DNA of 64,000 bases, from NCBI RefSeq assembly GCF_011761235.1, contig NZ_JAAOYW010000004.1, positions 1-64,000 of the forward strand, given 5' to 3'. Position 1 is the stretch's first letter; every line of letters starts with the position of its first letter. This document shows, piece after piece, positions 42,859 to 60,917 of the stretch. A program made the position numbers and the translations under genes. Under the pieces are notes generated by a model that was given only the letters and a program-made list of their open reading frames with translations, was not told where the DNA came from and did no database searches. The stretch comes from Frigoribacterium faeni. Its GTDB lineage: Bacteria > Actinomycetota > Actinomycetes > Actinomycetales > Microbacteriaceae.

Positions 42859-44225
42859 CCGAGGACGCCCCCGCTCCCGACGCGGTCGCGTCCCCGGCGC
42901 CCGACCCGTCCGCGAGCTCGACAGGGACGGGCGCCTCGGCCCCGCCCGAGACGTCCGGCCGCGCCGCGCGCACCGCTCTCTCGGCCCTCGTCGCCGCCCA
43001 CGCGATCTCGCAGACCGGCAACGTCGTGACCGCCTTCGCGGTGCCGTTCTCCGTGCTGGCGCTCGGCGGCTCGGGCGTCGAGATCGGCGTCGCGGCGGCC
43101 TTCGCCACGGCCCCGGTGATCATCGGCGGCCCGCTCGGCGGCGTGGTCGTCGACCGGGTCGGACACCGTCGTGCCGCGATCGTGGCGGACGTCGTGAGCG
43201 GCGCCTCCGTCCTAGCGATGCCCGTGCTGGCGCTGACGGTCGGCCTGCCGTTCTGGGCCCTGCTGACGCTGCTCTTCGTGGGCGGGCTGCTCGACGCCCC
43301 CGGCCAGACAGCCCGACGTGTCATGCTGCCCGGGCTGACCGAGCGCGCGGGGGTGCGCATCGAGCGGAGCGTCGGCCTGATCGACGGCTCCGAACGGCTC
43401 GCGAAGCTGCTCGGGGCGTCGCTGGCCGGGCTGCTCGTGGCCGCCGTCGGGCCCGTGCCGTCGTTGTTCGTCAACGCGGCGACGTTCGCCGTGTCGGCCG
43501 CGCTGACCTGGCTCTTCGTCCCTGCGCCCGCTCCGGTGCGCGACGGAGCGCCCCCCGCCGACCGCACCGACCCTGCCGACGCGGCCCGCGCCTCCTGGTG
43601 GTCCGACCTCGTCGAGGGAGCCCGCTTCGTCGCCCGCGACCCGCTGATGCGCCTGATCGTCGGGCTCGTGATGATCACGAACCTGCTCGACGCGGCCCGC
43701 GGCTCGACCCTGTTGCCCCTCTATGCGAACGACCGACTAGGAGGCGCCGCCGCCCTGGGTCTGCTGGTCGCGACCATGGGCGGCTGCGCCCTCGTCGGCA
43801 ACGTCGCGTTCGGCTTCGTCGCGCACCGGGTGCCGCGCAGGGTCACCTTCGCGGTCTGCTTCACGCTCGCCGGCGGGCCGGCGAGCGTCGCCTACGCGCT
43901 CGGGGCTACCCTGCCCGTGCTGGTCGGCACGACGGCGCTGGCGGGGCTCGCGGCGGGGGCGCTCAACCCGATCCTCGGCACGGTCGAGCTCGAGCGGACC
44001 CCCGAGCACATGCGCGGCCGCGTCTTCGGGCTGATCAACGCCGGGGCGTGGGCCGGCATCCCGGCCGGGGCGCTGCTCGGCGGGCTCGCGGCCGACACGA
44101 TCGGGCTGGGCGTCGCCTTCGGCGCCGTCGCCGTGGTCTACACGGCCGTGACGCTGGTCCCGCTGACGGGCGGGTCGTGGCGCCTGATGGAGCGGGCGGA
44201 CGAGCTCAGGCGCCGGTCGGCGTGA
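42855..44225 (+). CDS. MFS exporter (DHA3-like)
   Basis: This 456-residue twelve-helix exporter starts at GTG 42855, with about 38 disordered N-terminal residues (Ala/Pro/Ser). Typical blocks are AHAISQTGNVVTAFAVPFSV, GGVVVDRVGHRRAAIVADVV (motif A) and MRGRVFGLINAGAWAGIPAG. It probably exports a drug or metabolite that inactivates the co-encoded ArsR-type repressor. Its 3' end overlaps a convergent gene by 20 bases. Confidence 0.9.
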   Translation: MTEDAPAPDAVASPAPDPSASSTGTGASAPPETSGRAARTALSALVAAHAISQTGNVVTAFAVPFSVLALGGSGVEIGVAAAFATAPVIIGGPLGGVVVDRVGHRRAAIVADVVSGASVLAMPVLALTVGLPFWALLTLLFVGGLLDAPGQTARRVMLPGLTERAGVRIERSVGLIDGSERLAKLLGASLAGLLVAAVGPVPSLFVNAATFAVSAALTWLFVPAPAPVRDGAPPADRTDPADAARASWWSDLVEGARFVARDPLMRLIVGLVMITNLLDAARGSTLLPLYANDRLGGAAALGLLVATMGGCALVGNVAFGFVAHRVPRRVTFAVCFTLAGGPASVAYALGATLPVLVGTTALAGLAAGALNPILGTVELERTPEHMRGRVFGLINAGAWAGIPAGALLGGLAADTIGLGVAFGAVAVVYTAVTLVPLTGGSWRLMERADELRRRSA

Positions 44226-44724
44226 GCGGTGCCGCCCGTCCGGTGACGAGCTCGAACAGGGCGGCGAGCCCTCCGGCCAGCAGAGCGACGGTGAGAGCGA
44301 TCAGCCCCCACTCGCTCGTATCCCCGCCGGCGGCAACGGCCACGACGAGTGCGCACCCGCCCCCGGCGCAGAGACCGGTGGCGACCACGACGAGAGGCAC
44401 CCTGAGGAGGTGGCGCTCGGCCCCCGAGAGGCAGTGCACGCCCAGGGCCACGGCACCGGTCACGCAGCCGTGGACGATGCCCAGCGGGAGGCTGAACGGG
44501 ATGACGAACATGACGACCACGAACGAGACGTCGCGACCGGCGCCGGGCCACTCCCCGGTCGCGGTGTCGTTCCAGGCCGGCCCGACGACGAGGAGGAGGG
44601 TGAGCAGCACGGCCACGACCGCGCCGACGCCTCCGCCGAGCCCGACGACCGCGAACCCGAACGCCGCCCCGCGGCGGTTCTGCGCCTGAGGGCGCCCCGT
44701 CACGACAGGTGACGTCGCAGTCAT
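44206..44724 (-). CDS. Hypothetical four-to-five-helix membrane protein
   Basis: This 172-residue integral membrane protein has hydrophobic segments at about 21-47, 67-93, 106-130 and 137-160. No motif is recognised. It overlaps the convergent MFS gene by 20 bases. It is the last gene with core-like composition before the island. Confidence 0.65.
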   Translation of the reverse strand: MTATSPVVTGRPQAQNRRGAAFGFAVVGLGGGVGAVVAVLLTLLLVVGPAWNDTATGEWPGAGRDVSFVVVMFVIPFSLPLGIVHGCVTGAVALGVHCLSGAERHLLRVPLVVVATGLCAGGGCALVVAVAAGGDTSEWGLIALTVALLAGGLAALFELVTGRAAPLTPTGA

Positions 44725-44901
44725 CCGTGCCCCCGATCAGTCGCGCCCCTCAGCCGGAGTCTGGCGAGGACAGCTGCGCTCTGACAGTCCCCGTCAGGGG
44801 CACAGCCCCGTGTCCTGGAGACCACCTGGCCAGCCTGCAGCGAAGTCGATGCGCCCGCAGGGAGAACGGCGGCCTGTCCGCTCAGCTGTCGGCCGGCGTG
44901 A
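44725..44901. other. Left edge of the accessory island
   Basis: No gene is seen. Composition becomes more mixed after about 44760 and continues into gene remnants. No tRNA or direct-repeat attachment site was found at this edge. Confidence 0.45.
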
Positions 44902-45039
44902 CTGTTACAGGGGGATGCCAGCCACGAGCAGTTCACCGGCAACACCGGCGGCGGCGACCGCCTCACCGCCGCCGGTGCCATGCCGTCCCCGCAGACGCTG
45001 ACCTACGACGCCGCGAATCAGATCACCGCAGCTGGGTAG
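44902..45039 (+). pseudogene. Fragment of an Rhs/YD-repeat protein
   Basis: A short open stretch ends GDRLTAAGAMPSPQTLTYDA then ANQITAAG and TAG (45037-45039). LTYDAANQI is the typical core of YD repeats in Rhs and wall-associated toxin proteins. There is no start and no room for the rest of such a gene, so this is a relic of recombination. Confidence 0.6.
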
Positions 45040-45178
45040 GCCCGGAGGCGCCGAGAACTACACAGCGAACCTGACTTCGGCGTTCACGATGCGCTGTGAA
45101 TCGATCCGAGCCCCTGGGAAGACCAGGGAGCGAGCGTCCATCAGACGATGGGTCACGTTCGTGGCGGTGCGGGTTTTG

Positions 45179-45349
45179 CTAGCCGGCGACGTCCATGGTC
45201 GTGAGCTTCGCGCGGCGGCGGCGGGCCAGGGCCGTCAGGGTGGTGCCGAGCAGCGGGACGGCAGCGCCGATACCGATCGCTTCGGCGCCGTCGCTACCCG
45301 TGCACGCCAGGCCCGAGGGAGTTGCGACCGGAACGGTCCGTTGTTGATC
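45179..45349 (-). pseudogene. Remnant of a LAxTG-anchored surface protein
   Basis: Read on the minus strand, the frame gives TVPVATPSGLACTGSDGAEA, then a hydrophobic stretch IGIGAAVPLLGTTLTALA, then RRRRAKLTTMDVAG and a stop (45179-45181). This is a complete sortase sorting signal (LACTG, helix, Arg tail) like that of the intact surface protein at 57976. Everything upstream is gone. The upstream frame closes at about 45350 and is fused to foreign sequence. Confidence 0.7.
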
Positions 45350-45878
45350 TCAGATGCTCTGACAGAGACGCTGAGCCCGACGAGTCGCCCCGGCTCAAGC
45401 GAAGCGCCAAGCCGTAGATCAAGCCCAGCGGGCTCTCGAACCACTTCGGCTCGACGAGCAGCGCCGGCTGATTGTTTCGAAAGTCAGCTCGCGCTCCACG
45501 CCTGATGACTCGCTGCAGATGAGGGAGTGCCGTTTCCAAGCTGAGCCAATACCAGGCTTGCAGTTCATCGATCAGCCTGAGTTGCCACGAAGTGAAAGGT
45601 GACGCATCCCAACCTGGACTTGGCAGGTGCTCAGCTGACCCGTGACTTGCATTCCACCAGATGGGATACGGAAGCACTCTCTCGAGATGCACTTCCATCA
45701 AGTGGGCCTCGAACCAAGTACCTGCAGCGAGGACACGTTCGGCTACTTCTTCGGCCTGGACAGGCAGGTCGATACCCGACCGCTCCACGTATGCGGCAGC
45801 GTTGACCTGCAACGCATCGACCTGCCTCTGAAATAGCTCTCGTGCATCGACCTTCGAGAGCTCTGAGGTGAAGATCAC
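45294..45878 (-). CDS. Unknown protein, truncated paralogue of the next gene
   Basis: This 194-residue soluble protein starts at GTG 45878 with MIFTSELSKVDARELFQRQV. It is homologous to residues 1 to about 165 of the neighbouring protein; both carry SPFTSxQLxLxD, AWYWLxxExALP, RVxR and SPLxLxYGxxLRL. It lacks the neighbour's C-terminal domain. Its last 15 residues or so run into the LAxTG remnant in another frame, so the 3' end has probably been lost by recombination. The family is not recognised. Confidence 0.6.
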   Translation of the reverse strand: MIFTSELSKVDARELFQRQVDALQVNAAAYVERSGIDLPVQAEEVAERVLAAGTWFEAHLMEVHLERVLPYPIWWNASHGSAEHLPSPGWDASPFTSWQLRLIDELQAWYWLSLETALPHLQRVIRRGARADFRNNQPALLVEPKWFESPLGLIYGLALRLSRGDSSGSASLSEHLRSTTDRSGRNSLGPGVHG

Positions 45879-45921
45879 CAGCTCACGCTACCCAGAGCGC
45901 ACGAAGCACGAGGCTCAGGGG

Positions 45922-46974
45922 TCACATCTCTGCCGCGGAATCCGGCTCTTCGTTCACTGCTTTCATCAACTGTGGGATCAGAGGCTCCAGGGCGTTCGAC
46001 ACACTCCGAGCAAGAGACCCGCCACGAGGGCTGCCCTCGACGAACCAGCTCTCGGCGCCTTCCCGCACAGCCGACTGGACTCCCCGCACACCGAGCAGTG
46101 CCCGCGTCACGGTGTCCTCCAGAACGGCTTCGAGCTCACCGCCGCGGATGTACTCCGCGACGGCGACGTCTACCTGCCACCGACCATCCTCGGGATCGCT
46201 CGACCAGACGACGTCGACACACCGGAAGTCGTCATCGCTATTGATGTGCCAGGACACTTCCCGGATGCCGTCGTGACGCTCGCTCTGCTTCGTGATCTTC
46301 CCCATGCTTCGACTTTCCTCAGCCGGAGGCGCTGCCGCCTCATCGAGATCGACAGATCCTGTTGATCGGATCTCGTCAGGGGTTGAGGCAATGTCTTCCC
46401 GTTGGCGATCGGATGTTCCCACCGTCAGATTCTTCTCGAACGCCTCAACGATGTAGTTGACGTCCTCGTCTCGCCCGTCCAGGAGGCGGAGTCCCCATCC
46501 GTAGACGAGTATCAACGGGCTTGCATATCGCGCCGGAGCAATCTCCAGGTTCGGCTCCTTGTTGCGCCAATTTCTCTGACTCTCTTTTCGGACTACTCGC
46601 TTTGCCGCGGGGAGCGCAGCCTCGACAGCGAGCCAGTACCACGCGGAGAACTGGTCGACCAACTCCAACTGCGGTGATGTGAACGGGGACCTGCCCCGTT
46701 CGGCTTCGGGCAGCACTTCCGCCGTCGGCGCGTTGGGGTCCCACCACACTGGCAGCGGCGCGGGCCGCTCCTTTACTCCGGTGACGAGATGGTGCATGAA
46801 CCAGGATGCGGCCGCAGCGACCTGTGACCGGCGCACATCGAGCGAGTCGGAAGCCTTCGGCATGCTGATCTCGGCGCGCTGCGCGTAGGCCCTGGCGTTT
46901 GGCTCAAGCGTCGCGGTGTAAGCGTCGAACAGCTCTTGCGCCTCGCTCTTGGACAGCAGCATCGACGCAATCAT
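45922..46974 (-). CDS. Unknown two-domain protein of the accessory island
   Basis: This 350-residue soluble protein starts at ATG 46974 (MIASMLLSKSEAQELFDAYT, matching the start of the paralogue). Domain 1 (about 1-170) shares SPFTSPQLELVDQFSAWYWL and the following ExALP, RN and SPLILVYGWGLRLL segments with the paralogue. A charged linker follows. Domain 2 (about 240-335) has DGIREVSWHINSDDDFRCVD, then VDVVWSSDPEDGRWQVDV and a helical end. No catalytic motif is recognised. Lower GC than the core. It follows the small gene at 46979 by four bases. Confidence 0.65.
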   Translation of the reverse strand: MIASMLLSKSEAQELFDAYTATLEPNARAYAQRAEISMPKASDSLDVRRSQVAAAASWFMHHLVTGVKERPAPLPVWWDPNAPTAEVLPEAERGRSPFTSPQLELVDQFSAWYWLAVEAALPAAKRVVRKESQRNWRNKEPNLEIAPARYASPLILVYGWGLRLLDGRDEDVNYIVEAFEKNLTVGTSDRQREDIASTPDEIRSTGSVDLDEAAAPPAEESRSMGKITKQSERHDGIREVSWHINSDDDFRCVDVVWSSDPEDGRWQVDVAVAEYIRGGELEAVLEDTVTRALLGVRGVQSAVREGAESWFVEGSPRGGSLARSVSNALEPLIPQLMKAVNEEPDSAAEM

Positions 46975-46978
46975 GTCG

Positions 46979-47164
46979 TCAAGGTACCCAGGTCGTGTAG
47001 CCGATGCCTTGGCGCTCCAATCGGTCGAGGAGCGCAGGGTCAGGACCAAGTGAGTTGTTGGAGTGTGTGAAGAAGTGCCACTCGACGGACTCGACACCGG
47101 AGGTTCGGTCTTGGTTGGTTTCCAAGAAGCCTGCAGACCGGTCGCCCGGTAGACGGTCGTTCAT
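46979..47164 (-). CDS. Small hypothetical protein upstream of the two-domain protein
   Basis: This is a 61-residue protein with VESVEWHFFTHSNNSLGPDP then ALLDRLERQGIGYTTWVP. It looks like an alpha/beta unit and is vaguely RraB-like, but too short to name. Its first codons lie inside an 18-bp array element (47142-47159). It ends four bases before the next gene, so co-translation is likely. Confidence 0.45.
   Translation of the reverse strand: MNDRLPGDRSAGFLETNQDRTSGVESVEWHFFTHSNNSLGPDPALLDRLERQGIGYTTWVP
47142..47159 (+). repeat. 18-bp array element, outlying copy E0
   Basis: TCGCCCGGTAGACGGTCG matches the element family of the array (49485-54711) in the same orientation. It lies 128 bases before the serine recombinase gene. 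Confidence 0.6.
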
Positions 47165-47286
47165 CGGGACACCTTCGCGAGCCCGTCTTGGTGGGCTGGG
47201 GTCAAGTAGCGCCTGGCCTGCGGATTCGCGTATGCCTGTCCCGCAAAAAAGCCCGGTGACGGGGGCCTAAACGCTACAGTCATCGG

Positions 47287-47856
47287 ATGCTCATCGGCTA
47301 CGCCCGCGTCTCGACCTCGGGACAAGATCTCGCAGCACAACGTGACGGTCTCGCAGCACTCGGTGTTGACGAGCAACACGTGCATGTTGACCACGGCCTG
47401 TCGGGCACAACTCGAGCCCGGCCAGGCCTTCGCGAGGCAGTAGCCGCGTGCCGTGCCGGCGACGTCTTGGTCGTCACAAAGCTCGACCGTCTCGCCCGCT
47501 CCCTGCGGGACGCGACCGACATCGCCGACGAGCTCACGAAGAAGGGCGTCGCGCTCAACCTCGGCGGAGCGGTCTACGACCCCACCGACCCCGTCGGCCG
47601 GCTGCTCTTCAACGTCCTCGGCATGGTGGCCGAGTTCGAAGCTGACCTCATCCGAGCCCGCACCCGGGAGGGCATGGCAATCGCGAAGGCCGCCGGCAAG
47701 CTTCGCGGTCGCAAGCCCAAGCTCACTGCCTCGCAGGAGAAGCACCTCGTCCAGCTGCACCGCACCGGTGCCCACACCACGAGCGACATCGCCGAGTTGT
47801 TCGGCGTCGCTCGTTCGACGGTCTACAGGGCCATTCAGCGAGCCGATCAGCAGTGA
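47287..47856 (+). CDS. Small serine recombinase (resolvase/invertase)
   Basis: This 189-residue site-specific recombinase has the catalytic motif GYARVSTSGQDLAAQRD (nucleophile Ser9), then VTKLDRLARSLRDATDIADE and FNVLGMVAEFEADLIRARTR. The C-terminal helix-turn-helix is TTSDIAELFGVARSTVYRAI. Length and domains are complete, so it may be active. It stands beside an element copy and upstream of the cassette-like array. Similar proteins serve Tn3-type resolution or DNA inversion. Confidence 0.9.
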   Translation: MLIGYARVSTSGQDLAAQRDGLAALGVDEQHVHVDHGLSGTTRARPGLREAVAACRAGDVLVVTKLDRLARSLRDATDIADELTKKGVALNLGGAVYDPTDPVGRLLFNVLGMVAEFEADLIRARTREGMAIAKAAGKLRGRKPKLTASQEKHLVQLHRTGAHTTSDIAELFGVARSTVYRAIQRADQQ

Positions 47857-47894
47857 CCTAGAGGAGAGGACGGCGCGCCCTTAGGGCCGGCGGC

Positions 47895-48107
47895 TCAGTG
47901 GTGATCGGTGCCCTTGGAAGAGCCGGCCTTCCGCACCGCCACGAGGGAACCAATTGCGAGGACGAACATTGCGATGGCCAGGGCGCCGAACAGGAGCCGT
48001 CCGGTTAACCGAACAGGAGCCGTCCGGTTAAGTCGGGTGCCCGAAACAGAAGGACAACGGCAAGGACCACCTCCTGGCTCGCGGACGAGGCCGGCGCGTT
48101 CCGACAT
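47895..48107 (-). pseudogene. Small membrane protein with 23-bp duplication at its 5' end
   Basis: The C-terminal 35 residues (TGRLLFGALAIAMFVLAIGS and on) form one clear membrane helix and a basic tail. Upstream, a 23-bp unit is duplicated exactly (47986-48008 and 48009-48031). This shifts the frame between the two copies, so the N-terminal 30 residues read from ATG 48107 are not protein-like. The gene may be broken or start at a later codon. Confidence 0.4.
47986..48031. repeat. Perfect 23-bp tandem duplication
   Basis: Two adjacent identical copies, beginning CCGAACAGGAGCCGTCCGGT and ending TAA, with no spacer. The unit is not a multiple of three. Confidence 0.9.
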
Positions 48108-48289
48108 ATCTCACGATCCTGGGGATGCGAAGGAAGGCTCTGGTCCGTTGAGCTGATCGGCCGCAGGGTGGGCTGTGGTCATCTCAGGGGTGGAGGTCTC
48201 GTCATCCTCGAGTCCCGTCTTGTGTGTCGGAACGATCACGGGACCCTCGGAGGCCGAGCACGCGCCTCCCTGATCCGTACGGTTGAGAC

Positions 48290-48997
48290 ATGAGAACTTC
48301 TTGGGCGATCAGCGCCGCAGCAGCCGTGGCCGTGTCGATGACGGCAGTGCTCGCGGGGTGCACGTCGACCGAGGCGCCCGCGGCCGAATCGACGGCAAGC
48401 GACCCGCAGGCGACCTCGTCACCTGCACTGGAATCCGGCTCCGACGCACTCGCCGGCGTCGACTCGATCGTGGTGTCCTCTGCCGGACTGTCCCTCCGTG
48501 ACGCCGACTCCGAGGTCGCCTCGATCGATCTTGTCGGAACCACGCTCGACGACGCCCTCGAGACCCTGACCCAGGTGTTGGGTGCGCCGCGATCCAGCGA
48601 TGTCGAGGCGGGGTCCTGTGTGAGTGCGCAGACCGCCTGGGCCTGGGGTGACAACACGGTCATCGGCACCGCCGACGCCCTCACCGATGAGGGCACGCTG
48701 ACGTTCGGAACGAACCAGACGTCCGTCGAGACCGCTGACGGTCGCACGGTCCGCATCGAGACACCCACCGGCGCCGCTGTCGGCGATCCCGTCGCGCCCA
48801 TTGCCGACGGTCTGGACGCCAGCGTGAAGGACACCTTCGACACTGTGCCCGAGGAGGAGCGCCTCTCGGTCGTCTACGACCTCGCCCGAAGCGACCAGGT
48901 GGACGGCGAGTGGAACCCCTACGGGGCCTCCGTCTACAGCGAGAAGGGCGTCATCGAGGCGATCCGAGGCCCGGGGCACATCAAGAGCACCTGCTAG
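48290..48997 (+). CDS. Hypothetical lipoprotein
   Basis: This 235-residue lipoprotein has a 23-residue signal and lipobox VLAGC (Cys24), then a Ser/Ala/Thr/Glu-rich linker. The folded part (about 60-235) has SIDLVGTTLDDALETLTQVL, TAWAWGDNTVIGTADALTDE and a C-terminal Cys. Segments such as GTTLDDALETLTQVLGAP resemble extracytoplasmic sensing or binding domains, but I do not recognise the family. Composition is intermediate between island and core. Confidence 0.75.
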   Translation: MRTSWAISAAAAVAVSMTAVLAGCTSTEAPAAESTASDPQATSSPALESGSDALAGVDSIVVSSAGLSLRDADSEVASIDLVGTTLDDALETLTQVLGAPRSSDVEAGSCVSAQTAWAWGDNTVIGTADALTDEGTLTFGTNQTSVETADGRTVRIETPTGAAVGDPVAPIADGLDASVKDTFDTVPEEERLSVVYDLARSDQVDGEWNPYGASVYSEKGVIEAIRGPGHIKSTC

Positions 48998-49143
48998 GCG
49001 ACTCAGAACGGTAGGGGGCCTGCCGGTCGATGGACGGGTCATCGGATCTCGCCTGAGGCCACGAATCGTCTCGAGACAGCGTCGAACGACGTGCTGAGCG
49101 TCTCAGAAAGGGATGGTTCAACAGGACGTGACAGGCTGCGGTG

Positions 49144-49482
49144 ATGACTGACTCACCTGTTGCTCGGACAACTCTGATGGATCAGAACCTCGGCGGCGTC
49201 ACCAGCGTCTCGCACGTGGAGGTGCGCCGAATCTCGATTGCGCCCACGACGACCGGCGGTGCGCACACGCATAACGGGCCGGTTTTCGGAACGATTGAGA
49301 GCGGCTCCGTCACTTTCCAGATCGGCACGGGCGCGGAGATCGTCTTGCGGGCTGGTGACGTCTTCTACGAGCCGGCCGGGGTCGTGGTCTCGAAGTTCGA
49401 TACTGGTGGTGAGCCCGTGGTGTTCCTCGGCTACTTCCTCCTCGACGATGGCGCCGTTCCTGAGATCGAGTTCACCTCGTAG
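49144..49482 (+). CDS. Cupin-domain protein
   Basis: This 112-residue single cupin has metal motif 1 APTTTGGAHTHNGPVFGTIE and motif 2 AGDVFYEPAGVVVSKFD. It is a small beta-barrel protein that may bind a metal and a small ligand. ATG 49144 is preferred to GTG 49141, with little to separate them. Its stop is 2 bases before the first array element. Confidence 0.8.
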   Translation: MTDSPVARTTLMDQNLGGVTSVSHVEVRRISIAPTTTGGAHTHNGPVFGTIESGSVTFQIGTGAEIVLRAGDVFYEPAGVVVSKFDTGGEPVVFLGYFLLDDGAVPEIEFTS

Positions 49483-49484
49483 GA

Positions 49485-49502
49485 CTGTCCGGTAGGGGAT
49501 CC
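49485..49502 (+). repeat. Array element E1
   Basis: CTGTCCGGTAGGGGATCC. It lies directly after the cupin gene and before the cassette-like gene at 49526. It opens the array of eleven same-orientation elements. Confidence 0.75.
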
Positions 49503-49525
49503 TCTTCCGTTCCGATGACGGCGGC

Positions 49526-49933
49526 TCAGGCGGCCCGTCCTCGTCGGATCAAGGCAGCTTTGACGACACCGATGACGAGGAGCAGGCCTAGGGCTGCTGG
49601 GCCGTAGGTGAGCCAGGTGAGAATCCATGCATCAGCTGCTCCTCGAGCGGTCTCGATGACTGACGCAGTCATATAGGTGCACTCGCGACCCAACGGCCAG
49701 GCGGAGAAGGAACCGGAGACAAGCTGTGTCTCGATCGAGGAGTGGTCAAGGTACGGACCCTCGACGGCGCATTTGTAGGTCGCGCCCTTGTAGACGTAGA
49801 GCAGCCGGGCGGCAAGAAAGAGCGTTCCTGACGCGGCGAGGAGCACGACACCAACGAAGCCCTGCACGCGGTAGGACGTGAAAAGAGGGCGCATATACCT
49901 ACTCAAGAGGCAATGTGTGCGAGGCACATCCAT
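49526..49933 (-). CDS. Two-helix membrane protein, cassette paralogue 1
   Basis: This 135-residue protein has two membrane helices at about 20-45 (GFVGVVLLAASGTLFLAARL) and 105-128. Between them is an outside loop with two conserved Cys (YKCAVEGPY and RECTY), probably a disulphide. The start ATG 49933 (MDVPRTH) is fixed by alignment with the paralogue at 53228 (MDVPNGH). The two proteins share most residues, including YKGATYKCAVEGPYL and SGSFSAWPL. Function unknown. It lies alone between elements E1 and E2, pointing against them. Confidence 0.75.
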   Translation of the reverse strand: MDVPRTHCLLSRYMRPLFTSYRVQGFVGVVLLAASGTLFLAARLLYVYKGATYKCAVEGPYLDHSSIETQLVSGSFSAWPLGRECTYMTASVIETARGAADAWILTWLTYGPAALGLLLVIGVVKAALIRRGRAA

Positions 49934-49966
49934 CGGGCGGGCGACTCGATGAGATGCAGCCCGCGC

Positions 49967-49984
49967 CGTTCCGATAGACGATCG
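49967..49984 (+). repeat. Array element E2
   Basis: CGTTCCGATAGACGATCG, between the start of the gene at 49526 and the gene at 50058. Confidence 0.75.
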
Positions 49985-50057
49985 CTGTTCTGTTTCCTGC
50001 GTGAGGCAAACAGAGCCCAACGAGCGCTCTGGCCGGTTTGCCTTCTAGATTTGAGTC

Positions 50058-50534
50058 GTGTCCATCCTCGGAAGTTCTCCCTCTCGCGACGTCGAGAAAC
50101 GAACGACTTGGGTTCTCAGTTCGCACCCTGCCATTGGCCAGGTCGAGGGCGTGTCCGTGTGCGTCGAGCGCGTCGAGCTCACTGCGGAGCGCGTGTGGCT
50201 TCACGCGCGCGCCGTGTCGAACACGGTCACTGAGGAGCTCACCGCTGACTACTGGACTGCCAGCCGAGCATGGCGTGAGGTCGTAGGACACCGCGGGTGG
50301 GACGCAGCTGGCGAGCCACCAGCGGAGCCGGGATTGATGCTGCAACAGGTCGACGTAATGCTGAGCGATGCGAAAAGTCGCCCCGTGCCGGGAAGAACCG
50401 TGTCGGTTGGTGGCACCGGCACCGAATGGGTCATCTCGTGGTCGTGGCCGTTCCAGGCGGGAGACGAGCTGGCGTTCCTAGCTAGTTCCCCAGACGGTCG
50501 ATCGACAACACTCTGCGTAGACATTCGGCGCTAG
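50058..50534 (+). CDS. Hypothetical cassette protein
   Basis: This 158-residue soluble protein starts at GTG 50058. It is rich in beta strands: VEGVSVCVERVELTAERVWL, then VDVMLSDAKSRPVPGRTVSV and GTEWVISWSWPFQAGDELAF. It looks like an Ig-like or beta-sandwich fold. I do not recognise the family. It lies alone between E2 and E3. Confidence 0.6.
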   Translation: MSILGSSPSRDVEKRTTWVLSSHPAIGQVEGVSVCVERVELTAERVWLHARAVSNTVTEELTADYWTASRAWREVVGHRGWDAAGEPPAEPGLMLQQVDVMLSDAKSRPVPGRTVSVGGTGTEWVISWSWPFQAGDELAFLASSPDGRSTTLCVDIRR

Positions 50535-50552
50535 CTGTTCTCACCTTCAGGC

Positions 50553-50570
50553 GGTCCCGATAAGGGATCG
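50553..50570 (+). repeat. Array element E3
   Basis: GGTCCCGATAAGGGATCG, 18 bases past the preceding stop and 30 before the next start. Confidence 0.75.
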
Positions 50571-50600
50571 GCCACCGGGGCGACCTCGTAGGGTCGTTGC

Positions 50601-51176
50601 ATGGATCAGGGCGAAGTCGTCGAGCATGTCGCCCTCAGGGCTCGGTCGGCGGGCCGCCCGATTGTGGTCGGTATCTCGGGCTTCTGCGGGTCGGGGAAGT
50701 CCACGCTTGCGCGTCGCATGGTCGAGGCTCTGCTTGGCGCCGTGAGGATGCGCGGTGACGACTTTCTCGATCCTGCACGCTCTCACCTCCGCTCGGCGGA
50801 CTGGGACGGAGTGGATCGGCAACGTCTCGTTTCGAGTGTCTTGGAGCCCTTCCGCGGCGAGCAGCAGGGCGAATTCCAACGGTATGACTGGGCGGTAGGG
50901 GCCCTTGGCGCTCCGGAGCCGGTTCCTCGCGCCGAGATCCTCGTCGTCGATCTCATCGGCCTTTTCCACCCTGAGGCCTTGCCTTCCCTCGACGTCACGG
51001 TCTGGTGCGATGTCGAGCTCGACGTCGCCGTCAGCCGCGGCATGGCCCGCGACAGGGAACTAGGCCGACGCCACGAGGTGCTGTGGACCGACGTCTGGGC
51101 TCTGAACGAACGCGACTTCGCCCAGGAATTCATGCCGCGAGAGCACGCAGAGACGCTGTACGCATCGTCTCAGTAG
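50601..51176 (+). CDS. Uridine-kinase-like P-loop protein (cassette copy)
   Basis: This 191-residue kinase-like protein has Walker A GISGFCGSGKSTLARRMVEA, acceptor-side motif RMRGDDFLDPARSHLRSADW, QRYDWAVGALG and a Walker-B-like ILVVDLIGLFHPEALPSLDV. It would phosphorylate a nucleoside or other small molecule. It is a clear paralogue of the gene at 55550-56158 (shared AVRMRGDDFLDP, RSADWDGVDR and VVDxIGLFHPEALP). Its stop TAG lies inside element E4. Confidence 0.8.
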   Translation: MDQGEVVEHVALRARSAGRPIVVGISGFCGSGKSTLARRMVEALLGAVRMRGDDFLDPARSHLRSADWDGVDRQRLVSSVLEPFRGEQQGEFQRYDWAVGALGAPEPVPRAEILVVDLIGLFHPEALPSLDVTVWCDVELDVAVSRGMARDRELGRRHEVLWTDVWALNERDFAQEFMPREHAETLYASSQ

Positions 51177-51183
51177 GGGATCG
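51166..51183 (+). repeat. Array element E4
   Basis: CGTCTCAGTAGGGGATCG. It contains the stop codon of the kinase-like cassette gene. Confidence 0.7.
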
Positions 51184-51236
51184 GCTTTTGAACCGGTCAG
51201 AACCCGTGAATGGAACAGAAGTGGCACTCTTGGGCC

Positions 51237-51452
51237 ATGACTCCCAACGGCGACGTCAGTCCGGCTAAAGCTCAACTTAGAAGGGCGTTCATCGGTATGG
51301 CCGTGGGCGTCGTCCTCATCGTTGCTTTCCTTGTGGTCAGTGCTGTGACGAACCGGCTTGGCCTAATAGGGGTGGGCGTCGGGGTGGTGTTCGTTGCTCT
51401 GAATGCCGGTCGAGCCATCTGGGTGATGAAGCGACGCGAGGGAAAGAACTAG
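51237..51452 (+). CDS. Small two-helix membrane protein (cassette)
   Basis: This 71-residue protein has two helices (GMAVGVVLIVAFLVVSAV and GVGVGVVFVALNAGRAIWVM) and a basic end. Function unknown. It is the only gene between E4 and E5. Confidence 0.6.
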   Translation: MTPNGDVSPAKAQLRRAFIGMAVGVVLIVAFLVVSAVTNRLGLIGVGVGVVFVALNAGRAIWVMKRREGKN

Positions 51453-51497
51453 TGCTCTGCTCTAGCCGGGGCCATGGCATTCGTTCAAGTGCACGGG

Positions 51498-51515
51498 CCG
51501 TCCGATAGGGGATCG
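51498..51515 (+). repeat. Array element E5
   Basis: CCGTCCGATAGGGGATCG. Confidence 0.78.
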
Positions 51516-51618
51516 GTAGGCGGGGAGAGGAGAGGCGGGCACCGGTCCCCGGTTGGGGGATTTCATGACAAGCCCTCATCGTATTGAATGCTGTCCTGGC
51601 TTGACGATGGGGTGCGGC

Positions 51619-52149
51619 ATGAGTGACGACGGTTTTACGGAGCTATCGGCAGTGGCGAGTGGGCTGGCGGACATGTACCGTCCAAGTCCCGCTTGGCGAG
51701 GTAGCCCATTTAAGTGGGTGCAATCACTTCCGCCAGGGCGGCGCGGAGCCGTTGGGCGCCAGCTATTCCAGCAGTGGGCACGTAACCAGGGTCTGCAGGC
51801 TGAGACACACACATCGCCAGACCGGCAAATCTTTGTGGTCGCAAACGGCGCTCAAGTACAGGTCAAGCTTTCGACCCTTTGGCGGAACGGGTTCTATCGC
51901 TTTCAGCAGATCCGAGATCGAGATTTCGACTTCTGTCTATTCCTCGGGCTGTCTCCGCAGTCCGTGCATGCGTGGCTTGTCCCAAAGGAAGTCCTCGATG
52001 TGCATGTGATCGGGCACCTCGGGCAGCACACAGGAGCCGGCGCAAGCGAAACGGCTTGGGTGACGGTCTACCCCGAGGAAGTGCCAGGGTGGCTCGAGCC
52101 ATTTGGTGATTCACTCGAGCGGGTTCGTTCGATGCTTGTTTCGGACTAG
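51619..52149 (+). CDS. PD-(D/E)xK-like nuclease, possible restriction or defence protein (cassette)
   Basis: This 176-residue protein has VGRQLFQQWARNQGL, THTSPDRQIFVVANGAQVQV and the diagnostic VKLSTLWRNGFYRFQQIRDR, then DFDFCLFLGLSPQSVHAWLV and PKEVL. In related proteins this segment reads E-[IV]-K-x-STLW and forms the PD-(D/E)xK nuclease core. Here Gln replaces the usual acidic residue before VK, so activity is uncertain. No methyltransferase gene is adjacent. The start is taken as ATG 51619; ATG 51565 and 51607 are possible. It lies alone between E5 and E6. Confidence 0.6.
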   Translation: MSDDGFTELSAVASGLADMYRPSPAWRGSPFKWVQSLPPGRRGAVGRQLFQQWARNQGLQAETHTSPDRQIFVVANGAQVQVKLSTLWRNGFYRFQQIRDRDFDFCLFLGLSPQSVHAWLVPKEVLDVHVIGHLGQHTGAGASETAWVTVYPEEVPGWLEPFGDSLERVRSMLVSD

Positions 52150-52195
52150 GTGGACGAAGCAAGCACGCTCATTCAGCGTCGTCCGCTTCTTCAGG

Positions 52196-52213
52196 GTGCC
52201 CGATAGACGATCG
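52196..52213 (+). repeat. Array element E6
   Basis: GTGCCCGATAGACGATCG. Confidence 0.78.
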
Positions 52214-52261
52214 TGGTCTGGGACGGCCGTCCGCGGCACGGTCGACGTGAAAGCATGAGTC

Positions 52262-52453
52262 ATGACGTCAGATAACGCGCCCAGAGACGGTCGGACAACG
52301 TGGCGAGTCATGCTCGTCGTTGCGCTGGTCATCGCTGCTACGTCGGTCATCTTGATTGCCGTCGACCCTCACCAGGTGGGCATGTACTTCACGCTGATCG
52401 GCATGCTCTGCCTGATCTGGGTGAGCATCAGGAATCTGCGGCGACTCAAGTAG
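52262..52453 (+). CDS. Small two-helix membrane protein (cassette)
   Basis: This 63-residue protein has a polar start (MTSDNAPRDGRTTWR) and two helices (VMLVVALVIAATSVILIAV and MYFTLIGMLCLIWVSI), then a basic end. Function unknown. It is alone between E6 and E7; the latter starts 6 bases after its stop. Confidence 0.6.
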   Translation: MTSDNAPRDGRTTWRVMLVVALVIAATSVILIAVDPHQVGMYFTLIGMLCLIWVSIRNLRRLK

Positions 52454-52459
52454 GTCGCT

Positions 52460-52477
52460 GCGCCCGATAGACGATGG
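52460..52477 (+). repeat. Array element E7
   Basis: GCGCCCGATAGACGATGG. Confidence 0.75.
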
Positions 52478-52502
52478 TCTTCTGGGCGTTGGCCCTAGCG
52501 TG

Positions 52503-52835
52503 TCAACGCGTCACAAGGAGCGACAGGGCCACGACGAGTGCAACCACCCCGACGAAACCCGCGGTGACCAAGAGGCGGACCTTGAACCGGGCCCAGGGCA
52601 GAGCCACGAAAGCTGCGGCCACAACGGCTGTTCCGATCCCCATGCTCTTGGCTGCCTGAGCCACCCCCTCGGCAACCTGCGCCTCTGACTCACAGCCGGT
52701 GTCGGCCGTGCCGCACCACCCGATGAAGCCCGGAATCGCGGTGAAAGTGAGTGTGCCCACGGCGAGGAGACTCATCCAGGCCACATGCGCGACCGCGAGA
52801 GTCGCTCGGCTCGGCCGTTGCTCCTCAGCTGACAT
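52503..52835 (-). CDS. Three-helix membrane protein (cassette)
   Basis: This 110-residue protein has helices at about 15-38, 62-80 and 87-108, and two Cys in the outside loop (GWCGTADTGCESEAQ). ATG 52835 is chosen for GAGGAG upstream. Function unknown. It points against the elements that flank it. Confidence 0.65.
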   Translation of the reverse strand: MSAEEQRPSRATLAVAHVAWMSLLAVGTLTFTAIPGFIGWCGTADTGCESEAQVAEGVAQAAKSMGIGTAVVAAAFVALPWARFKVRLLVTAGFVGVVALVVALSLLVTR

Positions 52836-52902
52836 GACACTCCTCGGCAACAGGTTACGAAGCTGATTGGTCTGGTGCGCTCCCCAGTGAAGGGGGTGAA
52901 TC

Positions 52903-52920
52903 GTGCCCGGTAGGGGATCC
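52903..52920 (+). repeat. Array element E8
   Basis: GTGCCCGGTAGGGGATCC. Confidence 0.78.
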
Positions 52921-52970
52921 CGACGCGGGCACACGGGCTGCAGCCGAGGGAGCGCGAGCAGGTAGAAGGA

Positions 52971-53165
52971 TCAACCAGCTCGCTCTCGCAAGATTCGGTC
53001 AACGATTTCTTGGTCGAGCTCGATCCGCCGCTGACGATCCGCGTACTCAGCTCGAGGGTCGCTTTTGCGGTCCCAGATCTCCCACGTGCGCTTGAGCTGC
53101 CGGGCGCGCGCCTTCAAATCGTCGGTACTGAGCTGGACTAGGTCCTCGTAGGTCTCACCGGTCAT
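52971..53165 (-). CDS. Small charged helical protein (cassette)
   Basis: This 64-residue, highly charged protein is probably one long helix or a helical hairpin: LVQLSTDDLKARARQLKRTW, then EYADRQRRIELDQEIVDRIL. It could be a coiled-coil partner or antitoxin-like protein, but no partner gene is adjacent. Alone between E8 and E9. Confidence 0.55.
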   Translation of the reverse strand: MTGETYEDLVQLSTDDLKARARQLKRTWEIWDRKSDPRAEYADRQRRIELDQEIVDRILRERAG

Positions 53166-53195
53166 GGTTCCGAGACTAAGTGGGGCATCGCGACC

Positions 53196-53213
53196 TGTCG
53201 CGTATGACGATCG
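53196..53213 (+). repeat. Array element E9 (diverged)
   Basis: TGTCGCGTATGACGATCG. The central CGAT is altered, but length and ends are kept. Confidence 0.6.
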
Positions 53214-53227
53214 TCTTCCGTCCGCGT

Positions 53228-53647
53228 TCAGTGGTTCGAATGGCCGCCAGGGCGCGAGGTGCGGACAGTCCTGACTATGGCGATGACGAGGAGCGTTAGA
53301 CCAAGGAGTGCCGGGGCGTAGATGAACCCGGTGAGCAGCCAGGTGTCAGCTGTGCCTCGGGTGGTCTCGATGACGGAGTCAGTGACGTAAGTGCACTCGC
53401 GAGCGAGCGGCCAGGCGGAGAAGGAACCCGCAACTAGGTGGGTTTGGAACTGTGAATCTTCGAGATACGGGCCCTCGACGGCGCACTTATATGTCGCGCC
53501 TTTATAGACGTAAAGCAGTCGGACAGCGAGGAGGAGTGCTCCCGACGCGGCGATGAGCGCGGCGCCGGCCAGCCCCTGGAAGGGATAGGACATGAACAAG
53601 CGGCGCATCGACCTAGCTAAGGGCCCATGGCCGTTAGGCACATCCAC
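53228..53647 (-). CDS. Two-helix membrane protein, cassette paralogue 2
   Basis: This 139-residue paralogue of the gene at 49526 has the same layout. It has helix LAGAALIAASGALLLAVRLL, loop YKGATYKCAVEGPYLEDSQF with two conserved Cys, and second helix near 103-126. The start is GTG 53647 (aligned with ATG 49933). The DNA upstream is also related to that of the paralogue, up to and including the array element. Confidence 0.75.
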   Translation of the reverse strand: MDVPNGHGPLARSMRRLFMSYPFQGLAGAALIAASGALLLAVRLLYVYKGATYKCAVEGPYLEDSQFQTHLVAGSFSAWPLARECTYVTDSVIETTRGTADTWLLTGFIYAPALLGLTLLVIAIVRTVRTSRPGGHSNH

Positions 53648-53680
53648 CGCGAGAGCGACTCAAGGGAAGCAGCCCATGCC

Positions 53681-53698
53681 GTGCTGATAAGGGATGCG
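53681..53698 (+). repeat. Array element E10
   Basis: GTGCTGATAAGGGATGCG. Upstream of paralogue 2, at a position matching E2 upstream of paralogue 1. Confidence 0.65.
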
Positions 53699-53766
53699 CC
53701 CGCGGACTGAGGGGCGATCAGAACTCATCGCGCTGAGTCCTCCGTGCGGGCCTGTATGCTCCGACC

Positions 53767-54609
53767 GTGCAACCAGAGACGGTGCTTCTCCACGATGCGA
53801 CGAGACCGAGCTGGGCGGGGTTGGGGCCGCGGCCGATCCGGGCGCGTGTCTGGCCGAGCCGCCGAGAGGGGCCGGCTGCGACGGTCTTGTTGTCCCACGG
53901 CACCGGCGGCGCCGGGGAGGACCTCGATTGGCTGGCCGCGCCGTTGAACGAGGCAGGCTACCTCGTCGCTTCTGTCGACCATCACGGCAACAGCTACAAC
54001 GACGAGTACCTCGTCGAGGGCTTCACCCTGGTGTCTGAGCGGCCGAGAGACATCAGCTACCTTCTGGACCACGTCCAGAGCCAGTACGACGTTGACGAGC
54101 GCCGGATCGGCAGCGCCGGCTTCTCCCTCGGGGGCTACACCGTCGCCGCTCTGCTCGGTGCGGAGATCGACGCTCGGGTCATGAGCGCCCTCTTCGTCGG
54201 ACACGTCCGTGCCCCGCACGTGCCCGAGTTCCCGGACCTCATGGAGGCATTGCGCGCGAAGTACTCGATGGAGCAACTCGAGCTCCTGGCCCGGTCCGCT
54301 GCGAGTCCCGTCCGCGATCCTCGCGTGCGCGTCGGAGCCCTCTTCGCACCCGGCATAGCAGAGGTCCTCACGCCTGAGTCCCTGAGGATGATCGAGGCGC
54401 CCGTGCTCGTGCGCTGGGGTGACGTCGACGACATCACGCCCCCTTCGGAGAACGCACGCGTGTACGCCGATCTCATGCCTCGAGCGGAGGCTTCCAGCGT
54501 GGGCCCGACCGCGGGCCACTACATCTTTCTCGGTGACCGAGATGATCCTTCCCACGTCCGGGACGCCGCCGCCGCGGACACTGTCGACTTCTTCGCCCGC
54601 CACCTCTGA
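53767..54609 (+). CDS. Dienelactone-hydrolase-like alpha/beta hydrolase (cassette)
   Basis: This 280-residue hydrolase has VLLSHGTGGAGEDLDWLAAP (oxyanion loop), SVDHHGNSYNDEY, nucleophile elbow IGSAGFSLGGYTVAALLGAE, acid region LVRWGDVDDITPP and final His near GPTAGHYIF. It has no signal peptide, so it is cytoplasmic. The substrate is unknown. GTG 53767 starts the gene. It is the largest cassette gene, between E10 and E11. Its GC is higher than that of its neighbours. Confidence 0.8.
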   Translation: MQPETVLLHDATRPSWAGLGPRPIRARVWPSRREGPAATVLLSHGTGGAGEDLDWLAAPLNEAGYLVASVDHHGNSYNDEYLVEGFTLVSERPRDISYLLDHVQSQYDVDERRIGSAGFSLGGYTVAALLGAEIDARVMSALFVGHVRAPHVPEFPDLMEALRAKYSMEQLELLARSAASPVRDPRVRVGALFAPGIAEVLTPESLRMIEAPVLVRWGDVDDITPPSENARVYADLMPRAEASSVGPTAGHYIFLGDRDDPSHVRDAAAADTVDFFARHL

Positions 54610-54693
54610 TCAAGACCAAAGAGAAGGCAGGGCGCTGAGCGGCACATCGGCCCCCTTCACCGTCCTGGAAACGGCTAAAGGACGGAGGCAGCA

Positions 54694-54711
54694 GTGTCCG
54701 ATAAGGGATCG
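54694..54711 (+). repeat. Array element E11
   Basis: GTGTCCGATAAGGGATCG. Last copy seen, 179 bases before the SdpI-like gene. Confidence 0.78.
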
Positions 54712-54889
54712 CCAGTCGGGCCAGGGACCGCCGCCCGCCCGCCGGGCTCTCACTCGGACGGCGATCGCGAAGGGGAGGCCGGTCGAGCACGGGGTGTCGA
54801 CGCCCCGAGTGCTGCTCTCTGCAGGGTGTGCAACGGTAGAGGTGGGACCCCGCAGACCTCTCGGCCAGGGGTGCCGGAAGGAACACATC

Positions 54890-55240
54890 ATGACCGTCTT
54901 CGTAGCTGTTGCCTTGTCCGTTCTCGCGTTCGTCATCGCCCGTCTCGCCGGACGGGGAACCGTCGGGGCCAACGGGCTGGTGGGCATTCGCACGCCGGCG
55001 TTGCGGTCCTCAGACGCGGCATGGAGAGCAGGGCATCGAGCCGCCGTGCCCGTCCTGGCCGCTCTGACCATCATCTCGGCCACGGCGGGAGCCGCCATCC
55101 TCGCCACCACGTGGGGCATGGGCTCTGACGTCACGAACATGGCCGGGCTGTGGGTCATCGGCCTTGTCGTCGCCGGAATGGTCCTCGCAGCGATGCGTGC
55201 CGACTCAGTCGCGGCCACCACAGACCCTGGGACGCGCTGA
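54890..55240 (+). CDS. SdpI/YfhL-family membrane protein
   Basis: This 116-residue membrane protein has the family signature GANGLVGIRTPALRSSDAAW followed by RAGHRAA, and three helices. In Bacillus subtilis SdpI gives immunity to the SdpC toxin; most homologues are uncharacterised. ATG 54890 has GGAAGGA upstream. It follows E11, but no element is visible after it. Confidence 0.82.
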   Translation: MTVFVAVALSVLAFVIARLAGRGTVGANGLVGIRTPALRSSDAAWRAGHRAAVPVLAALTIISATAGAAILATTWGMGSDVTNMAGLWVIGLVVAGMVLAAMRADSVAATTDPGTR

Positions 55241-55282
55241 CGGAGAGGTCAGCTGAGGGCCCCCTTGACTCGCGGCGACTGG

Positions 55283-55504
55283 TCACGGCACCGGGATGGG
55301 GGTGATCCAGTGATCGGTCCCCACCGAGACATCCAGGCGGACGCTGAGAGGGTCCTCCCTTGACGGCAATGGGATGCTCCCGCTGCTGGTGACGTCACGT
55401 GTGCAGTCGCCCGAGCAGAACGTGCCGAGAGTGATCGTGAACTCGCCGGCGGAGCAGGCGACGCAGAAGCGCAGTCGTGTCGAGGACGGGTCGGGCCTGG
55501 CCAC
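55283..55504 (-). CDS. Small Cys-rich hypothetical protein
   Basis: This 73-residue protein (GTG 55504) has RFCVACSAGEFTITLGTFCS then GDCTRDVTSS, with four cysteines in CxxC-x13-CxxxC spacing that could bind zinc. The second half is beta-rich (PLSVRLDVSVGTDHWITP). Family unknown. It sits at the right edge of the island. Confidence 0.5.
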   Translation of the reverse strand: MARPDPSSTRLRFCVACSAGEFTITLGTFCSGDCTRDVTSSGSIPLPSREDPLSVRLDVSVGTDHWITPIPVP

Positions 55505-55549
55505 GTCGAAGGTGGCCGCACCGGTGCCGTGTTCGTGCAGCGACGGGGG

Positions 55550-56158
55550 CTACGCCGCCTCTCCCCCGCCGGGCTGCACGTCGGCGCCGAACAGCACCGA
55601 GGCCTGCTCCCGCGGGGCGAACAGTCGCTCGAAGTCGCGCTCGTTGGGCACCCAGATGTCGCGCCACAAGTCCTCGTGCGAGCGCCCGAGCCGTCGGTCC
55701 CGGGCGATGCCGCGCTCGGTCGCCGTGTCGAGGTCGACGTCGCACCACACCGCGACGTCGACCGCGGGCAGAGCCTCCGGGTGGAACAGCCCGATCACGT
55801 CGACGACGAGCACCTCGGCGCGGGGCAGGCGCTCCGACGGACCGAGGGCCCGGGCGGACCAGTCGTACCGGCGGAACTCCCCTGCCTGCCCATCGCGGAA
55901 CGGCACCAGGACGGTCGAGACGAGCCGCGCCCGGTCGACGCCGTCCCAGTCGCTCGACCGCCGGTGCGACCGGACCGGGTCGAGGAAGTCGTCGCCACGC
56001 ATCCTCACCGCGCTCGGCAGCACCTCGACGAGGCCGCGGGCCAGCGTCGACTTGCCCGATCCGCCGTAGCCCGAGATCCCGACGACGACCGGACCAGCGG
56101 CCTCGGCCGCCCGCGCGGCGATGAGGTCGGCGAGACCGGCGAGATCCGTGCGCTCCAT
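55550..56158 (-). CDS. Uridine-kinase-like P-loop protein (core copy)
   Basis: This 202-residue kinase-like protein has Walker A GISGYGGSGKSTLARGLVEV, RMRGDDFLDPVRSHRRSSDW, RRYDWSARALG and VLVVDVIGLFHPEALPAVDV. It would phosphorylate a small molecule, possibly a nucleoside. Its GC and codon use match the core. It is the paralogue of the cassette gene at 50601; the C-termini differ. Likely monocistronic. Confidence 0.8.
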   Translation of the reverse strand: MERTDLAGLADLIAARAAEAAGPVVVGISGYGGSGKSTLARGLVEVLPSAVRMRGDDFLDPVRSHRRSSDWDGVDRARLVSTVLVPFRDGQAGEFRRYDWSARALGPSERLPRAEVLVVDVIGLFHPEALPAVDVAVWCDVDLDTATERGIARDRRLGRSHEDLWRDIWVPNERDFERLFAPREQASVLFGADVQPGGGEAA

Positions 56159-56526
56159 CCGACGAACCTACGAGAGCACCAGCACCACCGGCACCAGCAC
56201 CAGGACACGTACCCACGCGCGCGGCCCCGCACCCGAGATCCCGACCACCACCCTCTCGACCTGCCCTGCCTCCACCCTGTAGCGTCCAGGCAGAACGGTC
56301 CCCGAGGCGAGACCCGGTCGACGCCCCGCGCGGCGGCCCCGACTCCCTCATCGACGAGCACGCCCCGACCTGGTCGGGCCCGCTCCCGCACCCCCAGGAT
56401 CCATGGCCACGCAGAGCTGAGTCGGCGCCTCGAGCGCCGACCCCCGACGCGAGCAGCACGCTCGCCTCCTCTGCCTGCCCGGCCCGCGCCTTCTCGTGGG
56501 TCGACGACCCCCAAGGACCTGTCCCC
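56159..56526. other. Gene-free interval
   Basis: No convincing gene or strong hairpin is seen. Short AGCACCAGCACC-type repeats lie at 56174-56200. The remainder is the leader of the MFS gene at 56527. Confidence 0.5.
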
Positions 56527-57795: not shown

Positions 57796-57975
57796 GGGCG
57801 GACCGGCCCCTGCACGGGGGGTCGATCTCGTGCATACCGAGCAGTACCCCTGCCCTAGGCTCAGGCTGAGCTCGGTCGTCACCCGTCCCGAGAGACCGAG
57901 CGGCGGCCCATCGGCCGGGTGCCCGGACATCCCCCTCCGCAGCCCCGCTGCCCCGTGAGAACTGGACCCCCGCCC

Positions 57976-59835: not shown

Positions 59836-59846
59836 GCACGACCGCC

Positions 59847-59882
59847 CGGAGCCCCCTGCGTCGCCCGACGCGGGGGGCTCCG
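59847..59882 (+). terminator. Terminator of the surface-protein gene
   Basis: CGGAGCCCCCTGCGTCG (59847-59863) and CGACGCGGGGGGCTCCG (59866-59882) pair with one G-U, 11 bases past the stop. Confidence 0.75.
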
Positions 59883-60072
59883 TCGTGCGCTCGGGTGCGC
59901 GAGACCGCAGCCGCCGGCACGACCGGAGCGCCGCCTCCTCGAAGGATCCTCAGCGATCTCGCCGGTGACCCGGCTACTGTCGCCGAACGGCAACACGCGT
60001 CGCCCAGAGGCGGCGCCGGCCGACACCCGCAGCACCCGCGACACCCGACATCGACGGCAAAGGAGCCAGCTC

Positions 60073-60816: not shown

Positions 60817-60917
60817 CCCCGCGCCGGGCCGTGCCCATCGGCCCGGCCCGGCCTCGGTCGGCGGCCCCACGGCCGGGCGGACCAAGGCGACCTGAGACCC
60901 CGAGCTAGCCTGACCGC

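Follow-up and report, generated by a model that had tools for sequence, protein, structure and literature searches.

A probable integron-like gene-cassette system of a small serine recombinase in Frigoribacterium

Genes and sites at the locus

The DNA considered here (the window) is a stretch of 64,000 nucleotides from Frigoribacterium faeni, in which a recombinase gene stands between a short dyad and an array of similar dyads. The gene (47287..47856, + strand) encodes a small serine recombinase of 189 aa, and its N-terminus, MLIGYARVS, carries Ser9. Pfam reports a Resolvase domain (PF00239, 2.8e-41) and HTH_7 (PF02796, 5.1e-11), so the protein has both marks of a small serine recombinase, a catalytic domain with the nucleophilic serine and a C-terminal HTH_7. 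Among solved structures, phmmer ranks Gin invertase (3.9e-32) and gamma-delta resolvase as the nearest. A previous reading made from the nucleotide sequence alone (the sequence-only reading) had described a complete serine recombinase gene with the catalytic Ser9 intact, and the open reading frame agrees with that description.

The same reading had placed a copy of the array element, E0, at 47142-47159, where it is indeed found. This 18-mer corresponds to the left two thirds of a longer dyad, 26 bp on the + strand at 47144-47169, GCCCGGTAGACG-GT-CGTTCATCGGGA, with a GT core at 47156-47157. Crossover sites of small serine recombinases (hix, gix, res site I) are built in this way, from two 12-bp half-sites that flank a 2-bp core. 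Taken alone, the 18-mer has 2 matches when up to 3 mismatches are allowed (0.51 expected), which is not significant; the significance of E0 comes from genome comparison, not from this count. In 35 Frigoribacterium copies E0 lies at position -131 from the recombinase start, and all 35, matched by offset, have the core GT, whereas the arrays have AT. The right half is essentially invariant across these copies and conservation ends at E0; the left half fits the consensus yet varies from genome to genome. The spacer between E0 and the gene (47170..47286, + strand) is conserved across copies, and these 117 bp may serve as a promoter and as an accessory region like that of res.

Downstream of the gene, about nine good sites span 49487-54721, all on the + strand and in the same direction as the recombinase. 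The array element is an E0-type dyad with the core AT; its left half, GCCCGATAG(A/G)(C/G)G, is strong, and its right half is weaker, CG...CGG being the commonest form. The dyad model places sites 1 to 3 at 49487..49512 (core 49499-49500), 49969..49994 (core 49981-49982) and 50555..50580 (core 50567-50568), sites 5 to 8 at 51500..51525 (core 51512-51513), 52198..52223 (core 52210-52211), 52462..52487 (core 52474-52475) and 52905..52930 (core 52917-52918), and the last clear site at 54696..54721 (core 54708-54709). Site 4 (51168..51193, core AT 51180-51181) is weaker, and in other genomes both of the neighbouring cassettes end there; the AT site at 53682..53707 (core 53694-53695) is degenerate. 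Another degenerate AT site on the + strand (49101..49126, core 49113-49114) starts the cupin cassette, and homologous cassettes align from 49112. It takes the place of a weak element-like sequence noted in the sequence-only reading at 49004-49021, which the dyad model does not support.

The genes named next all lie on the + strand. The cupin gene (49141..49482, in cassette 49113-49498) is 88% identical to cassettes of two other genomes (L111 and L116), and a P-loop kinase-like gene (50601..51176, in a cassette of about 50567-51180) is 95% identical to an array cassette of genome G015. The gene at 51553..52149 resembles the PADLOC model of a type II restriction enzyme (E 3.6e-49) and is 97.5% identical to a cassette of locus L138; a methylase is not evident within its cassette. 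A further cassette gene (53767..54609) was recognized with Pfam as an alpha/beta hydrolase. Two kinds of gene occur as pairs in or beside the array: P-loop kinases at 50601-51176 and 55550-56158, with ~74% DNA identity, and small membrane proteins at 49526-49894 and 53228-53584. Four of the cassettes (50567-51180, 51180-51512, 51512-52210 and 52474-52917) match cassettes of four other genomes, a different one in each case, at 95, 97, 97.5 and 90% identity, whereas a chromosomal neighbour gene of the window reaches only ~74-84% identity across the genus.

Recombinase and array are contained in a 16.7-kb island (44198-60912), the edges of which are joined directly in three relatives. These edges, at ~44.2 and ~60.9 kb, were considered as dyad sites and are not. 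The 3' end of the recombinase gene was likewise considered as an attachment site, given that its HTH codons resemble an inverted element, and was rejected: conservation is coding-like up to the last codons, with no dyad step. The DNA right after the stop codon varies between copies and contains no recognizable site. In L075, L076 and L089, repeated DNA of ~0.9 kb or longer begins ~40 bp past the stop; it has ~90% copies elsewhere and is likely an insertion sequence. At L083:8228-10030 (G000:C2) a second, 5'-truncated copy of the recombinase starts at a degenerate AT site ~600 bp past the intact copy.

Association of the sites with the recombinase

For comparison across the genus, we used 38 recombinase loci from 16 Frigoribacterium genomes, all of which contain near-identical copies of the recombinase, mostly several each. 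Sites were sought with a half-site consensus, GCCCGATAGACG, and reversed sequences served as the control. This model finds 418 sites over all loci against 8 in the controls, and a 15-base site pattern has 9-41 matches per genome and 0 in the controls. Over the 38 loci, site density is 0.68/kb on the 3' side of the recombinase and 0.02/kb upstream, a 34-fold difference. Among 291 clearly oriented sites, 252 point along the recombinase and 39 the opposite way, and at least three sites occur within 9.5 kb at 31 of the 38 loci.

Whether recombinase and element arrays co-occur across genomes was a check suggested in the sequence-only reading, and the arrays do track the recombinase through the genus. 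The genome of the window has a second array (L081, G000:C1:1169005-1177819) with no recombinase or E0 remnant nearby; that genome has three recombinase copies elsewhere. In G019, which belongs to another genus, an array begins with E0, the spacer and what is left of the recombinase gene, its first 14-15 codons. Arrays of this kind, with no intact recombinase adjacent, would have counted against the link had they been regular, as the sequence-only reading had stated; they are few and explainable.

In other genera, an E0-like dyad is found at -115 to -155 in 46 of 57 homologues (control windows, 3 of 221), with GT, AT, GA or AA as the core. Some of the relatives sit on plasmids. Our first model, with the array to the left of E0 as at attI, fails in Frigoribacterium, where the arrays are 3' of the gene; an upstream layout does occur in Arthrobacter-type loci and on the Curtobacterium plasmid D35. 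Dyad arrays lie upstream of E0 in Arthrobacter, Pseudarthrobacter and Cryobacterium loci, and D35 has about ten cassettes there, including annotated GNAT, nucleotidyltransferase and desaturase genes. In four Cryobacterium loci (L163, L160, L161 and L196) the E0 core is GA, sites to the left have AA, and sites to the right of the gene have TT or TC; it is as if the GA/AA pair repeated the G-to-A difference between platform and array in Frigoribacterium. Both the anatomy of the sites and the linkage between arrays and recombinase can be shown from genome comparison.

The recombinase could instead be that of an ordinary Tn3-type transposon with a res site of its own, its nearness to the array being accidental. 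It is resolvase-like, and E0 with the conserved 117 bp resembles the layout of res, in which the crossover site is distal and the accessory region lies by the gene. However, arrays stand beside the recombinase at the 31 loci counted above, and a Tn3 transposase (PF01526, DDE_Tnp_Tn3) is found in 0 of the 16 genus genomes; the Tn3-type unit that the sequence-only reading had named as its alternative is therefore not seen in the genus. We give this explanation very little probability.

Cassette exchange at the 2-bp core

Across the genus loci, 286 cassettes were delimited in silico, with a median length of 666 bp. A single convincing open reading frame is present in 229 of the 266 cassettes of up to 2.5 kb, and 105 of these genes read with the array and 124 against it. 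To locate the exchange points, we compared homologous cassette pairs, 80 that differ in the left neighbour and 65 that differ in the right one. Identity steps from ~25-40% to ~90% across the core: at the left junction it is 37/42% at positions -3/-2 and ~91% from +2 onward, and at the right junction it is 90% at +2 and 32% at +4. From these flanking positions, the exchange overlap is at most ~4 bp. The estimated overlap fits serine recombinases, unlike the 6-8 bp of tyrosine recombinases. Three breaks of homology in the Arthrobacter clade lie no more than one base from an AT core. Genome comparison is enough to show that the cassettes are horizontally shared and exchanged at the 2-bp core, and E0 itself is, on the same basis, an imperfect dyad with exchange at its 2-bp core, as is typical of sites for small serine recombinases.

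Sites that are short, repeated, palindromic and intergenic could also be passive repeats (REP-like sequences, terminators or regulator sites), with the mosaic arising by homologous recombination between them. The breakpoints, however, fall at the central dinucleotide rather than being spread over the repeat, and sites of 26 bp with only partly matching sequences would be poor substrates for homologous recombination. It is also difficult to reconcile passive repeats with the comparison of G013 and G015 below, where flanks are 100% identical and inserts wholly different. We disfavour this explanation as improbable.

Another possibility is that a different enzyme (a second serine recombinase, XerCD or some other tyrosine recombinase) exchanges the cassettes, and that the adjacent recombinase is only the resolvase of its host element. 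Relatives of the recombinase do occur on plasmids, where multimer resolution is an established role of such enzymes, and tyrosine recombinases are present, none above the IntI cut-off. Another serine recombinase family, 40-44% identical, is found near some loci (for example, L090:7179-7793). It is missing from some genus genomes, though, whereas the family of the window recombinase is in all 16; the short overlap around a 2-bp core excludes the usual tyrosine overlaps; and a dyad of the same type as the array sites, E0, is fixed at -131 of the recombinase in the genus and lies nearby in other genera. We consider a different acting enzyme unlikely.

E0 also behaves as a boundary of exchange. 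Between genomes G013 and G015, identity is 100% for 500 bp to the left of an outer GT core and for 600 bp to the right of the E0 core, yet the inserts between the two GT cores are unrelated, 4750 bp long in G013 and 802 bp in G015. G014 has the 802-bp insert too, next to another left flank. Thus, GT-core cassettes have been swapped at E0, which is to say that a platform site by the recombinase, of the type known from integrons, is a place of cassette exchange here, with GT-core cassettes. The G013 insert (L090:3809-8558) encodes a CAP12/Pycsar TIR-domain protein, one protein each of the DUF4238 and DUF805 families, and a second serine recombinase, from a different subfamily.

Larger blocks share this boundary. 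The E0 core is the starting point of a block, 99-100% identical over 8.9 kb or more, that three species have in common while the DNA to its left is unrelated; the blocks of L075 and L076 diverge later, at an AT site at +15.2 kb. A GT-type right end of the movable block was sought and not found, the breaks being at AT sites only. A search for an exact empty E0 target, using the left flanks of L076 and L074 as probes, also found none; relatives lacking the recombinase have diverged at the junction. All inserts seen at E0 have GT cores, and no AT cassette was caught entering there. With GT at E0 and AT in the array, direct exchange between E0 and an array site would leave a core mismatch.

Proposed mechanism and known systems

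From these comparisons, we consider it probable that the locus is an integron-like gene-cassette system run by the small serine recombinase. The hypothesis of the sequence-only reading, a serine recombinase with its own site linked to an element array in the manner of an integron, gains support from the arrays, from E0 as an exchange boundary and from the dyads at homologues in many genera. The integron analogy itself holds in part: there is a platform-type site by the recombinase, with a different enzyme class as had been foreseen, and the AT array in Frigoribacterium lies 3' of the gene and not beyond E0.

In the proposed mechanism, the recombinase, a relative of Gin/Hin invertases and gamma-delta resolvase, would recognize the 26-bp dyad as 12-bp half-sites around a 2-bp core, and the adjacent recombinase is presumably the acting enzyme. 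Serine recombinases make a double-strand cut at the core, rotate and rejoin; in this case, the half-sites would be bound, both strands cut at the 2-bp core, and the ends rotated and rejoined. E0 would serve as the platform site, its right half constant and its left half contributed by whatever DNA has joined. The cassette unit would consist of a core and right half, one gene, and a left half, exchanged precisely core to core (perhaps as a circle), and the outcome would be tandem arrays of mostly single genes in either transcription direction. Which sites recombine would be decided by a match of the core dinucleotide. Since rejoining needs matching cores, GT should pair with GT and AT with AT, and core matching would thus provide two channels, GT at the platform for E0 cassettes and whole-block movement, and AT in the array. 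Whole blocks of recombinase plus array would begin at E0, and AT-core cassettes would build the long arrays. Accessory sites like those of res may lie in the conserved 117-bp spacer. The second serine recombinase family, where it lies near a locus, could contribute.

As proposed, the system works in an integron-like way without being an integron. Like integrons, it combines a recombinase gene and an adjacent platform site with tandem, promiscuous, mostly single-gene cassettes between recombination sites, and recombinase-less arrays occur in both. Unlike integrons, which depend on a tyrosine enzyme (IntI) and long folded attC sites, it has a serine enzyme and 26-bp double-strand dyads with a 2-bp core; its cassette genes take both orientations (105 and 124), there are several platforms per genome, and the side of the array relative to the recombinase varies by genus. 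No IntI-type integrase (TIGR02249) scores above the cut-off in any of the 16 genus genomes, and the junctions are 26-bp dyads with AT or GT cores rather than attC sites, that is, long imperfect hairpins with a conserved GTT core.

Other systems share some of these parts. Invertases with several crossover sites (Hin, Gin, Min and Mpi) have the same enzyme family, 12-2-12 dyad and 2-bp core, but they flip fixed segments of one locus, whereas here the exchange at the cores involves different genes and crosses loci and species. Tn3/gamma-delta resolvase-res systems and plasmid multimer resolvases also have an upstream crossover dyad with a conserved stretch before the gene, and plasmid-borne relatives; unlike in Tn3/gamma-delta, the genus has no transposase, and many stand-alone crossover sites delimit cassettes. 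In pdif modules, XerCD sites flank gene modules of plasmids, with chromosomal tyrosine recombinases, a 6-bp spacer and no dedicated adjacent recombinase. Short dyad recombination sites bound gene modules in both systems, but here a dedicated recombinase adjoins, and in place of dif-like XerC/XerD sites with a 6-bp spacer there are 2-bp-core sites whose exchange overlap does not exceed ~4 bp. In the open-access literature, with preprints and most subscription papers outside the scope of the search, we found no earlier description of a serine-recombinase cassette array.

We lean towards a broader view, that this is an independently evolved equivalent of integron gene capture, widespread in chromosomes and plasmids of Actinomycetota, in which the core acts as an address: GT for the platform and AT for the array, with a GA/AA pair in Cryobacterium. 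Integrons are the textbook platform for single-gene cassettes and depend on a tyrosine integrase; if the present proposal is true, the cassette-capture way of life would have evolved twice, once on a serine recombinase. A 189-aa enzyme, a 26-bp site and a core-dinucleotide code would make up a compact system. Classical integrons are rare in actinobacteria, which would have in this system a route of their own for sharing efflux pumps, acetyltransferases, restriction enzymes and defence effectors.
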